DNA of 64,000 nucleotides from a bacterium. GTDB taxonomy: Bacteria; CLD3; SB21. Each line of letters starts with the position of its first letter. Within the stretch, counting starts at the first letter, position 1. The stretch spans positions 1 to 64,000 of the forward strand of contig WBUR01000011.1 of NCBI GenBank assembly GCA_008933615.1, read 5' to 3'. A program made the position numbers and the translations under genes. Below, piece by piece: positions 7,930 through 12,455 of this stretch. The notes beneath the pieces are model-generated. The model did not search any database. It was not told the DNA's origin and saw only the letters and a program-made list of their open reading frames with translations.

Positions 7930-9495
7930 ATGCGTACTGTATTTAAGTTAATCTTGATCTGGTGCTGTTGGAGTCAGATCGCATCAGCAGCGACGTCCTC
8001 CGGTGTTCTTAAAGGCGATGAAACATGGGAAGGAGTGGTAATCATTACCGGCGACGTTACTGTGCCCGAGGGCGTTACGCTTCGCATCCGGCCGAATGCT
8101 TTAATAAAATTTGCGGCAAACCGGGACGATCAGCAGGGCGGCTATGATATAAATAAATGTGAATTGATCATCGAAGGTATGCTGCGTGCAGAAGGACAGG
8201 AAAAATATGAGATTCGTTTCACGTCGATCAATTTCAGCCTTCCAGGCCAGGAGTCTACATTGAACGCCCAACCTCAGGCGAGCGATTGGTACGGCATCAT
8301 TTTCAAAAAAGGGAATAACGATAAGAGTATTGTTTCCTACAGTGTCATTGAATTTGCTTATGACGGCATCACATGCATCAATGCCTCGCCTCGTATTTTC
8401 AGAAACCGCATCGAAGGAAATTATTGGAACGGCGTCTTATGCGACATTATGTCGGCTCCTAAAATTAACAGTAACCGGATCATGAATAACGGATACGCCG
8501 GACTGAATTGTAAGATCGGATCTTCGCCCAGCGTGAGCAGTAATGAAATAAGCGGCAACCGATACGGAATACTTATACAAGACGTTTCTCAACCTGTGAT
8601 CGGCGATATGCGGCTTGGCGAAAATGCAGGAAAAAATGCGATTTACGGAAACCTGGAATTCAATCTCTATAATCACACTAAGAATGTCATATATGCGCAG
8701 CGTAACGATTGGGGAGATAATACGAATGCAGATCAGATGATTCACGATGACGATGAAAACAGAAAATTTGGCCTTGTGGTGTATACACCCGTATACCGCA
8801 CCGGAAGTATTTCATATTCTGAATTGCAGAGCCTGGCAAGCGCTACTGCAACGTCGGTTCCGACCGAGGCTGAAAATAAAGCGCAGAAAGAAGAACTTGA
8901 GGATTTAAAAAAGAAACTAGCCGAAAAGAAAGAACAAACGTCCAAGCAGCTGGCCTCCGCATCGGACATAACCTCGAAGGAAGAGAAAGAAAAGCTCAAA
9001 GAGGACCAAGCCAAAGAGAACGAGCGGTTAAAACTTCTTGAGGCTCAGATTAAACAGCAGGAACAGATAAAAATAGAACAGGAAAAAGCGCTGGCAGCCC
9101 AGAAAAGAGCGGAAGAAATTGAAAAGCAGAAAGCCGCCGCCGCGGTGACGGCTGAGAAAAAGGAAACAACCTCTACTTCTGCGCCAAGTTTTATTCCTAC
9201 TAAAATGGCGAATGAACTTGATAACAACCCGAAACCGATACAGAAGGTTAATCCCGTAATGCCTGACCTGCCGAAAAAGGCGAAGGTGAACGGAACGGTT
9301 TCATTACGCGTCTTGGTTGGCGCTAACGGTGTACCTGAGGAGATATACGTATCAAAGAAGATAGGAAATAAGGATTTTGATCAAATGATTAATGACGAAG
9401 CGATCGCCGCGGTGAAAAAGTGGGTGTTTGAAACAGGATTATCAAATGGACAGCCTGTCAAATATTGGACGGTCGTGACGGTTCTGATGAAATAA
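7930..9495 (+). CDS. Exported protein: right-handed beta-helix, coiled coil and TonB C-terminal domain
   Basis: Residues 1-21 are a signal peptide or N-terminal anchor ending SQIASA. About 25-290 resemble a parallel beta-helix with recurrent short turns (SPRIFRNRIEGN, APKINSNRIMNN, SPSVSSNEISGN). About 305-405 are a Glu/Lys/Gln-rich coiled coil. About 425-521 are a TonB C-terminal domain (GTVSLRVLVGANGVPEEIYV). TonB domains normally sit on an inner-membrane anchor with a proline-rich spacer; here the spacer is a coiled coil and a beta-helix comes first, an unusual combination. It follows the HPt-array gene by 37 bases and may be co-transcribed. Partner receptors and function are unknown. Confidence 0.8.
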   Translation: MRTVFKLILIWCCWSQIASAATSSGVLKGDETWEGVVIITGDVTVPEGVTLRIRPNALIKFAANRDDQQGGYDINKCELIIEGMLRAEGQEKYEIRFTSINFSLPGQESTLNAQPQASDWYGIIFKKGNNDKSIVSYSVIEFAYDGITCINASPRIFRNRIEGNYWNGVLCDIMSAPKINSNRIMNNGYAGLNCKIGSSPSVSSNEISGNRYGILIQDVSQPVIGDMRLGENAGKNAIYGNLEFNLYNHTKNVIYAQRNDWGDNTNADQMIHDDDENRKFGLVVYTPVYRTGSISYSELQSLASATATSVPTEAENKAQKEELEDLKKKLAEKKEQTSKQLASASDITSKEEKEKLKEDQAKENERLKLLEAQIKQQEQIKIEQEKALAAQKRAEEIEKQKAAAAVTAEKKETTSTSAPSFIPTKMANELDNNPKPIQKVNPVMPDLPKKAKVNGTVSLRVLVGANGVPEEIYVSKKIGNKDFDQMINDEAIAAVKKWVFETGLSNGQPVKYWTVVTVLMK

Positions 9496-9563: not shown

Positions 9564-9986
9564 TTATCGCGGGAGCGCCCCATTGGATATCCATAAACGG
9601 ATGGTGTCAATTTGTGCCGTTGTAAGAAATGGCGGCCCGTCTCCTGGCATCCGGTCGCCATCAATTCCAGGCGCACCTTCAATCTTCTTAACTAAATAAC
9701 TGTTGTCCGGAGCAAAAGGGAGTACACGTTTTAGTGATGGTTGTTCCTCGCTATTTACGCTCACAATATCGTCGTAAGCAGAAAACTGAGATAAATTCAT
9801 TCCTGCTTCCGGTGAGGATCCAGCATGACAGCCTGAAGTGGCGCATTCATTGGTAAAAATATTCTGAACATTTTCCGGAACTAACGAGCCACTGCCGGTT
9901 CCTAAATTGTCAACTTGCTCCAGTTTGCCGCAAGAAAAAAAGCTATAACATAGTGTGATTATATACACAAATTTCATAGGCCTCAT
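9564..9986 (-). CDS. Small lipoprotein with planctomycete-type cytochrome c domain (CX4CH)
   Basis: A 140-residue exported lipoprotein: signal sequence and lipobox ending at C19 (FFSCGK), then a cytochrome-like domain with C48-ATSG-C53-H54, a CX4CH variant of the CXXCH haem site. A late RMPGDGPPFLT segment offers a methionine as the sixth haem ligand, followed by the typical IRLWISNGA ending. Its middle (PSLKRVLPFAPDNSYLVKKI) closely parallels the cytochrome part of the barrel protein encoded just upstream, so the two domains are related. The 13-base gap to that gene implies one operon. An alternative start at the ATG at 9977 would drop three residues. Haem binding is inferred. Confidence 0.8.
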   Translation of the reverse strand: MRPMKFVYIITLCYSFFSCGKLEQVDNLGTGSGSLVPENVQNIFTNECATSGCHAGSSPEAGMNLSQFSAYDDIVSVNSEEQPSLKRVLPFAPDNSYLVKKIEGAPGIDGDRMPGDGPPFLTTAQIDTIRLWISNGALPR

Positions 9987-9999
9987 TCTGTTAAAAAGT

Positions 10000-11280
10000 T
10001 TACCACTTGAATTGCCTGTAAATATTGAATCCGAGATGTACTGCCGGATCTTTAGTAGTCAATTTATTAAATGGAACGGGTTTTGTAGAACTGCCTGGTA
10101 TGTACTGCGTTGTGTGAATAGATTGGGAATTGGAAATAAGCAGCTGAAACACATGCAGCCGCACTTTATAGGCAAGGCCAAGCGACCACGTATCATAACG
10201 CCGGTCATCTGCAAAATCATTTCCTTTATATCCTCCCATCCTTGGAATATATTCGGCGGTCAAAGCAAAGTCTTTCATGAGTTGGTATTGAGCGCCCAGG
10301 CCGATCGCAAACGTTGCGCGGCTGTCTTTATAGTTTTGAAAAGTGGTATCGTTAATCTGCTTGATAATTCTTGCATTATGATTGCTTCTGAATGCAATGG
10401 ATGGAGCGGCCAGAATGGAGAATCTATTATTGATCCTTGAGGCGGCAAGTAATTGGACGTTAGGTGAAAACCGGTGCTTTGCATTCACATCGCTTCGGCT
10501 GATCCAGTTGAAGCCCGTATAGATTCCAATTGACAACGGCATGTTCCCGGATTGCTGGATTGGAACATGTTTTACGGCAACTTCAACATCCTTATTTTCT
10601 CCGGAACGGCGGACCAGGATGTCTGTATTTTTGTTCAGTCCGACGGATAAATTGATACTCGTGATCGCCCCATTATCTAATCCAAAAAAACTTCCCAGTG
10701 TATTGCTTCCGCCTCCGTTGCTGACCGCAAATCGGTGCAGAATACGGAATTCGGCGGTCTTTGAACTCAATACGCGTGTCGTCGGCAGATTAATGAGTTG
10801 TGTGGCGAGAAAGGCTTCTGAACTTTCATTGGAAGAAGGTGAGATTTCGGAATTGGATTCTGCTATTTCTCCCCAGATGTTTGTTGGAAATGACTGAATC
10901 CAGTTTTCGATAACGTTAATCTCGTCCTTCGATAATTTCTCATCGTCCAGGGGCATACCTTCGTCTTTGAATGGAAGCTGTTCTTGATCGCGGATTATTT
11001 TTCGGTAGAGATAACTGTCACTGACGTTGTTAGGCATGATGCGCTTGAGAGAAGGATCTTCAATACTGGCGTTATTGACCAGATTTCTGTAACTGTATCC
11101 GGCTTCAAGTGAGAGTCCCATCGGGGCTTGTTCTGAACTGTGACAGGATACGCATTTTGCGTTAAAGACCGCCTGTACTTTCGCAAATTTTTCAAAATGC
11201 GCCTGATCCTGGGCGGCAATACTTTTACTCAGGTTCATCATGATTGCTAATAGGAACCATCCGAGAAGATACTTATTCAT
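10000..11280 (-). CDS. Cytochrome c domain fused to a DUF5777-type outer-membrane beta-barrel
   Basis: Signal peptide (about 1-23), then a single-haem cytochrome c domain with C43-V-S-C46-H47 and a likely distal ligand M109 in GMPLDDEKLS. A Ser/Asn/Glu-rich linker (about 138-155) leads to a predicted beta-barrel (about 160-426) that resembles DUF5777: LGSFFGLDNGAITSINLSVG near its start and LGFNIYRQFKW at the C-terminus, which ends in an aromatic residue like many outer-membrane proteins. The sequence suggests a haem domain tethered to a barrel in the outer membrane, so a role in electron transfer at or across that membrane is possible. It lies between the eRF1-like gene (20 bases upstream) and the lipoprotein cytochrome. 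Confidence 0.82.
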   Translation of the reverse strand: MNKYLLGWFLLAIMMNLSKSIAAQDQAHFEKFAKVQAVFNAKCVSCHSSEQAPMGLSLEAGYSYRNLVNNASIEDPSLKRIMPNNVSDSYLYRKIIRDQEQLPFKDEGMPLDDEKLSKDEINVIENWIQSFPTNIWGEIAESNSEISPSSNESSEAFLATQLINLPTTRVLSSKTAEFRILHRFAVSNGGGSNTLGSFFGLDNGAITSINLSVGLNKNTDILVRRSGENKDVEVAVKHVPIQQSGNMPLSIGIYTGFNWISRSDVNAKHRFSPNVQLLAASRINNRFSILAAPSIAFRSNHNARIIKQINDTTFQNYKDSRATFAIGLGAQYQLMKDFALTAEYIPRMGGYKGNDFADDRRYDTWSLGLAYKVRLHVFQLLISNSQSIHTTQYIPGSSTKPVPFNKLTTKDPAVHLGFNIYRQFKW

Positions 11281-11300: not shown

Positions 11301-12455
11301 CTAATACCTGAGTAGGGCTCCGATGTTGCCCATGATCTTTAATCGGGAATTGTCCGATGTGTTTTCTACCTTGCAGCCCTGCATAAAGGCAAAAGTGATA
11401 GCTTCTTCTATAACATCATCAAGGTCATGGGCTTTACCGGAGCAGATCGGACAAGTATCTTTGGGACCCTTTTCTTCGGGAACTCCGATAAAAAAACATT
11501 GGTGACAAACAAAACCGGGAGCTTTGTAGCTTTTGGCGACAATGAGTGTATTCACACCGCCCCGACGCAGTGATTGTAACGTGGGCTGTAAACCGAATAT
11601 TCCTTTACCGCCGGCAGTATTCGCTTCGCCTTTGAGTTTATCTATTAGTTCAGTTTCGTACTTCTTTTCAGCCGCCTGGGCAACTTCCTGCGATTTTTTT
11701 AGTATGTCGTTCAGAGGCGCTTCCGGTTCAACCACAATGTGGCCGACGATTTTTTTGCGCGTGGATGAAGTAAGAGTGGATTCAAATTGTGATATAATAT
11801 TTTGCCTGCCGCCGATGATCAGGCGCGTCATATCCTCCTCTTCGATGAGTTTTTCTGTCTGTGCCGCCACATGATTAAAATGCTTCTGCACCATTTCGTC
11901 GTGGGCGCGATTAATGTTTCTTTCCTGAGTCCCCTCAATGCCGCCGTATTTTATTTTCGGCAAGACGTCATTGTGGATGCTGAGGTATTCCTTGACAAAC
12001 CCGAGCGTCACGTTCAGAATTTTCGCTTTGGCGCTGTCAACAAGCACAATACCGTAACTGCGATGCTCGCATATCAATTCGCTCAACGTTCGTATGTAGG
12101 GATCATAGTCGGCATTCAAATGGTTGGAAACCGCCTGTGGAAGTTCCAAAAGTTCCCAAAAATTATTGGCGCTGCAAGAAAAAATGGCCAAACCTTTATG
12201 ATGGTCGTTGTGAAGAAAGTCGTGATGGACAAAATGTTCAATTTTCGAAAAGTCGTTTTCAAGGGAGAGAACCTGCTCGCGGGCTAATTTTTTTTCATGC
12301 TTTATTTTGTCTAATCCCTGACGCCGGTCTTTGATCATATCTTTTAAGGCAATCTTATGATTATTATTTTTGTCGAGATGAAGATACATCGATGTAATAA
12401 AATAATCTTTACTGCCCATTTTCGACAGCCGTTCGATCGTTTTTTGATTCAGCAT
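11301..12455 (-). CDS. Bacterial eRF1-like protein (baeRF-type) with zinc ribbon
   Basis: A 384-residue protein organised like archaeal/eukaryotic release factor 1. About 1-125 is an N-terminal domain with a charged helical pair; about 130-250 is the middle domain; about 270-384 is the L7Ae-like third domain with a zinc ribbon (C317, C320, C335, C338). At the position of the catalytic GGQ loop the sequence reads GGIEGTQERNINR (171-183), so GTQ or GG..Q replaces GGQ. Such bacterial relatives have been proposed to act in ribosome rescue or quality control; this one's role is inferred only. A strong AAGGAG site precedes the ATG. The cytochrome-barrel gene follows after 20 bases. Confidence 0.8.
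   Translation of the reverse strand: MLNQKTIERLSKMGSKDYFITSMYLHLDKNNNHKIALKDMIKDRRQGLDKIKHEKKLAREQVLSLENDFSKIEHFVHHDFLHNDHHKGLAIFSCSANNFWELLELPQAVSNHLNADYDPYIRTLSELICEHRSYGIVLVDSAKAKILNVTLGFVKEYLSIHNDVLPKIKYGGIEGTQERNINRAHDEMVQKHFNHVAAQTEKLIEEEDMTRLIIGGRQNIISQFESTLTSSTRKKIVGHIVVEPEAPLNDILKKSQEVAQAAEKKYETELIDKLKGEANTAGGKGIFGLQPTLQSLRRGGVNTLIVAKSYKAPGFVCHQCFFIGVPEEKGPKDTCPICSGKAHDLDDVIEEAITFAFMQGCKVENTSDNSRLKIMGNIGALLRY

Follow-up and report, generated by a model that had tools for sequence, protein, structure and literature searches.

What role might a cytochrome c domain play when it is built into the same polypeptide as an outer-membrane barrel? This question is raised by a gene in a 64-kb stretch of DNA, referred to here as the window, from a bacterium whose phylum is small and little studied, with only nine genomes available. 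The open reading frame runs from 11280 to 10000 on the minus strand, begins with ATG and encodes 426 amino acids in a single unbroken frame; ORF calling, Pfam and alignment together identify it as a fusion of a cytochrome c domain and a DUF5777 outer-membrane barrel. From its N-terminus, the protein comprises a probable signal peptide read by eye (residues 1-23, MNKYLLGWFLLAIMMNLSKSIAA; 11212-11280, minus strand, as for all parts of the gene), followed by a class-I monohaem cytochrome c domain (residues 33-130; 10891-11184). This domain contains the haem attachment motif C43-V-S-C46-H47 (11140-11154), evident from sequence and alignment, and Met109-Pro110 (10951-10956), the likely sixth haem ligand by comparison with class-I cytochromes. 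A variable linker (residues 136-156; 10813-10875) leads into the DUF5777 barrel (residues 157-426; 10003-10812), for which PF19089, AlphaFold2 and Foldseek point to an outer-membrane barrel of 12 predicted strands with a tryptophan at its end.

The cytochrome assignment combines invariant haem-binding residues with a Cytochrom_C (PF00034) match over residues 33-130, which at 23.2 bits exceeds the Pfam cut-off of 21.3 by a modest margin. A PF00034 score above gathering, a CXXCH motif and a downstream methionine, by which a class-I cytochrome c is recognized, are thus all present, and we infer from the sequence that the domain would be loaded with haem c. By its profile match, the protein is a member of DUF5777 (PF19089), aligning over residues 157-424 to profile positions 1-247 with 158 bits against a Pfam cut-off of 23.1. 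An NCBIfam scan of the fusion returned no family at or above its cut-off. An earlier note on this DNA had proposed precisely such a chain of signal peptide, CXXCH domain with a methionine ligand, linker and DUF5777-like barrel with an aromatic last residue. The fusion itself is confirmed, with the chain ending in QFKW, while the interpretation that the note placed on it is partly supported.

The fusion is present in all seven sequenced genomes of the bacterial family, complete in six and truncated by a contig end in the seventh, and DUF5777 was absent from two sister-family genomes belonging to the same class. The five other full-length fusions share 52-94% identity with the window protein, and C43, C46, H47, Met109-Pro110 and the C-terminal QFKW are kept across all six in the alignment; the haem motif reads CVSCH in the window protein and CISCH in one relative. 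Across the whole gene, dN/dS was about 0.12-0.14, indicating purifying selection, which acts on both domains and most strongly on the barrel (0.08-0.09), the most conserved part of the protein. The linker was the least constrained part in two more distant pairs (0.36-0.56) and is the least conserved part overall. Since the same full-length frame occurs in six genomes under purifying selection, we ruled out a chance motif or an assembly artefact. Chance is also excluded because only two of the 58 called ORFs in the window contain a CX2-4CH motif, and these two, the fusion and a companion cytochrome, are neighbours. The earlier note had regarded two separate genes in close relatives as evidence against a fusion; split genes were found only in distant phyla.

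AlphaFold2 modelling of the full-length protein from eight sequences folded the DUF5777 part into 12 antiparallel strands, bearing out the predicted beta-barrel. This model is of low confidence (pLDDT 60, pTM 0.52), with low pLDDT in the linker, and does not fix where the cytochrome sits in relation to the pore. The barrel modelled alone reached pTM 0.71 and pLDDT 68 and again showed 12 main strands, with an additional hairpin of low confidence; the barrel models are only moderately confident because the alignment is shallow. Foldseek searches against solved structures gave small outer-membrane porins, OmpG, KdgM, NanC and VhGalP, as the best structural matches (E-values 1e-6 to 1e-3), and no sequence match to any solved structure was found for the fusion protein. 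We infer an outer-membrane location and topology.

Directly downstream of the fusion, on the same strand, lies the companion gene (9564-9986, minus strand), which by Pfam and alignment encodes a 140-amino-acid probable lipoprotein with a monohaem domain homologous to that of the fusion, including CATSGCH and Met-Pro; its lipobox, like the signal peptide of the fusion, was judged by eye. The companion stands beside the fusion in six of the six genomes with an intact locus. A baeRF family 10 gene (11301-12455, minus strand), release-factor-like and assigned by Pfam and as a conserved neighbour, lies 20 bp upstream on the same strand, is kept in all six genomes and is probably co-transcribed with the fusion. 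The resulting order of baeRF gene, fusion and companion was also observed in the five genomes of the bacterial family inspected besides that of the window. The genome encodes cytochrome maturation genes for haem assembly and two haem-copper oxidases, both of which an electron chain of the kind proposed below would need. The 64-kb window held no pointers to Fe(II) oxidation.

One fusion of a monohaem cytochrome with an outer-membrane porin has been described before: Cyc2 of iron-oxidising bacteria, which is defined by the motif AXPXFAR[Q/K][T/Y] upstream of CXXCH, a 16-stranded porin and a length of at least 365 amino acids (PMC8406198). The fusion resembles Cyc2 in its signal peptide (by eye), its single N-terminal CXXCH cytochrome, its C-terminal barrel and its length above 365 amino acids. 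However, the defining motif was absent from the window protein and from the five bacterial-family fusions tested, which rules out membership of Cyc2. The barrel is also of a different and smaller family, DUF5777, with 12 predicted strands in two moderate-confidence models instead of 16. In addition, the profile matched by the haem domain is that of ordinary class-I cytochrome c, and a neighbouring gene encodes a lipoprotein cytochrome. The missing motif and the distinct barrel set the fusion apart, and by sequence it would be a separate and apparently undescribed cytochrome-porin family. The MtrCAB and PioAB complexes likewise combine a cytochrome with an outer-membrane barrel, and include a lipoprotein cytochrome in MtrC. 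However, they are multihaem assemblies of separate chains in which the 26-stranded MtrB holds a decahaem protein (PMC8406198), whereas here each protein has one haem motif and the barrel has 12 predicted strands. As no MtrB/PioB homologue (PF11854) was found in the genome, a multihaem conduit of this type was ruled out. The earlier note set the fusion against the multihaem complexes alone, an incomplete comparison that overlooked Cyc2; compact cytochrome-porins are therefore not new in kind.

We extended the analysis to other phyla. In a Bacteroidota phylum, DUF5777 was found in 113 of 297 sampled genomes. We inspected 20 loci, mostly top-scoring, so the partner rates that follow are not unbiased. 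The barrel family is the same and its genes again lie near monohaem cytochromes, but the barrel is a stand-alone protein of about 290 amino acids without a fused haem domain in 19 of the 20 loci, with a single fusion at L135. A YceI lipocalin, the most constant partner, was encoded no more than 1.5 kb from DUF5777 in 18 of 20 loci and a small haem protein in 16 of 20. Small haem proteins were enriched near the barrel, accounting for 17 of 101 genes within 1.5 kb compared with 1 of 71 further off (Fisher p = 0.0007). YceI was the commonest Pfam family among the partner genes (17/57), with OB-fold and Rieske proteins among the others. The recurrent operon (L121-L140) consists of a small monohaem lipoprotein, a membrane-anchored and often present OB-fold protein (tRNA_anti-like), YceI and DUF5777, and Rieske-like proteins are encoded at L123 (5096-5527) and L127 (4928-5371).

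In the acidobacterial phylum, 85 of 297 sampled genomes contained DUF5777, and among the 30 best loci a haem motif lay on the same chain in about 13. Several long frames first read as fusions proved to be out-of-frame extensions across a separate cytochrome gene and were left out of the counts. Most of the haem-DUF5777 fusions have class-I-like domains, and a lipoprotein cytochrome gene adjoins most fusions, lying just upstream of several class-I-like ones (L072, L073, L076, L086). At L104 (3143-4864, plus strand), a 574-amino-acid chain has two haem motifs ahead of the DUF5777 barrel and looks like a merger of companion and fusion; the join may also reflect a frameshift or sequencing error. 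The fusions at L088 (949-2241, plus strand) and L118 (3264-4775, plus strand) have another haem module, CxTCHINPAGGGPRNxFGxAF, that to the eye bears some resemblance to the haem region of Cyc2 and may represent an independent fusion. Those at L112 (3453-4814, plus strand) and L113 (3791-5131, minus strand) have haem-motif domains of a third kind (CHSCH); L112, the one of the two that was scanned, matched no other Pfam family. At L095 (850-2337, plus strand), a cupredoxin-like domain at the N-terminus (PF13473, 47 bits) takes the place of the haem domain. We do not claim copper binding for L095, since it seems to have lost one ligand position and its sister L097 has largely lost them.

In a tree of 67 barrel domains, nearly all stand-alone Bacteroidota barrels fell into one clade (35 rows, support 100/98), and fused forms required four state changes, at least three of them on well-supported branches. 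Because the tree has a midpoint root and a score-biased sample, it does not settle whether the common ancestor was fused or unfused.

The recurrence of the joined design in other phyla, together with its resemblance to Cyc2, makes it likely, though unproven, that the fusion acts as a gate for electron transfer in the outer membrane. In the explanation that we consider best, with a probability of roughly 0.38, the single-haem class-I cytochrome would be held by its short linker at the end of the 12-stranded DUF5777 barrel that faces the periplasm. The haem would lie where the pore opens into the periplasm, since both ends of a porin are periplasmic by default, a reasoning already published for Cyc2 (PMC8406198). 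A small soluble substrate may reach the haem through the barrel and exchange electrons there, and the electrons would be handed on to, or received from, the companion lipoprotein cytochrome, presumably linking the unit to periplasmic carriers, so that the fusion would work like Cyc2 despite its different barrel family. Counting against this explanation, many DUF5777 barrels occur without a fused haem domain, which indicates that the pore does not require a tethered haem.

The constancy of YceI in Bacteroidota fits a role other than electron exchange at a pore mouth. Lipocalins of the YceI family bind ubiquinone-8 and, together with cytochrome b561, counter lipid peroxidation in Burkholderia (PMC9113575), and an envelope antioxidant or quinone relay can be envisaged in which DUF5777, cytochrome and YceI pass electrons to lipid-soluble quinone or oxidised outer-membrane lipids, as proposed for LcoA-BcnA. 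The occurrence of Rieske proteins among the partners would also suit such a relay, and LcoA-BcnA, a pair of cytochrome b561 and YceI lipocalin, parallels the Bacteroidota operons in tying an envelope redox protein to YceI (PMC9113575). However, that system has an inner-membrane b-type cytochrome and no barrel, the single YceI gene of the window's genome lies on another contig, unlinked to the fusion, and a search of nine acidobacterial loci found no YceI gene. The relay also leaves the 12-stranded pore unaccounted for; we regard it as unlikely. We think it slightly less likely again that the barrel is a mere anchor, which would keep a periplasmic cytochrome at the outer membrane for relay to other periplasmic proteins, the pore having no redox role. 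A short, variable linker and the exchange of N-terminal modules on the same barrel in Acidobacteriota, including the cupredoxin-like domain, would fit an interchangeable anchor. Lipidation, already used by the companion, would nevertheless be cheaper, the barrel is the most conserved part of the fusion, and stand-alone barrels are likewise retained beside redox genes.

Electron export, for which the earlier note suggested tests, would place one haem inside, the barrel across the membrane and a surface lipoprotein cytochrome outside as a minimal MtrCAB-like conduit. We consider this improbable: inner haem, barrel and lipoprotein haem are indeed encoded together, as in porin-cytochrome complexes, but a single haem on either side would probably not bridge the membrane, and a multihaem wire is impossible with a single haem and 12 strands. 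Very improbable, in our judgement, is a pore that moves a metal or small metabolite, with the haem domain as a redox sensor or gate outside any electron chain; the top structural matches are substrate porins, and gating by a Met-His monohaem domain is conceivable, yet an electron relay fits the conserved second cytochrome and the Rieske partners better than such a transporter.

Taken together, DUF5777 is linked to redox proteins in three phyla. With slightly less than even confidence, we propose that DUF5777 barrels may be widespread, undescribed outer-membrane redox porins in at least three phyla, independent of Cyc2 and MtrCAB, and partnered by fusion or operon with interchangeable one-electron carriers, namely several kinds of haem c, Rieske and perhaps cupredoxin-like proteins. 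If this redox role is true, the family, which reaches more than a third of the sampled Bacteroidota-phylum genomes and more than a quarter of the sampled Acidobacteriota-phylum genomes, gains a testable job in single-electron traffic at the outer membrane. The Cyc2 design of one haem fused to a small pore would then have arisen more than once, and searches by Cyc2 models or multihaem counts would overlook such systems. The DUF5777 fusion family and its steady pairing with one-electron carriers appear undescribed so far; neither DUF5777 nor its operon was found in the open literature searched, with an earlier description in subscription papers being possible, and a Riemerella iron-limitation study that features a YceI gene does not mention the operon.

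Two further proteins of the same genome were observed. A 437-amino-acid probable lipoprotein (L002, 1480-2793, minus strand) has repeated PEGA-like domains, recognized by eye, and a C-terminal monohaem domain homologous to that of the fusion. Within the window, a gene convergent with the cytochrome genes (7930-9495, plus strand) encodes a right-handed beta-helix (NosD-like) region and a TonB C-terminal domain in one protein.
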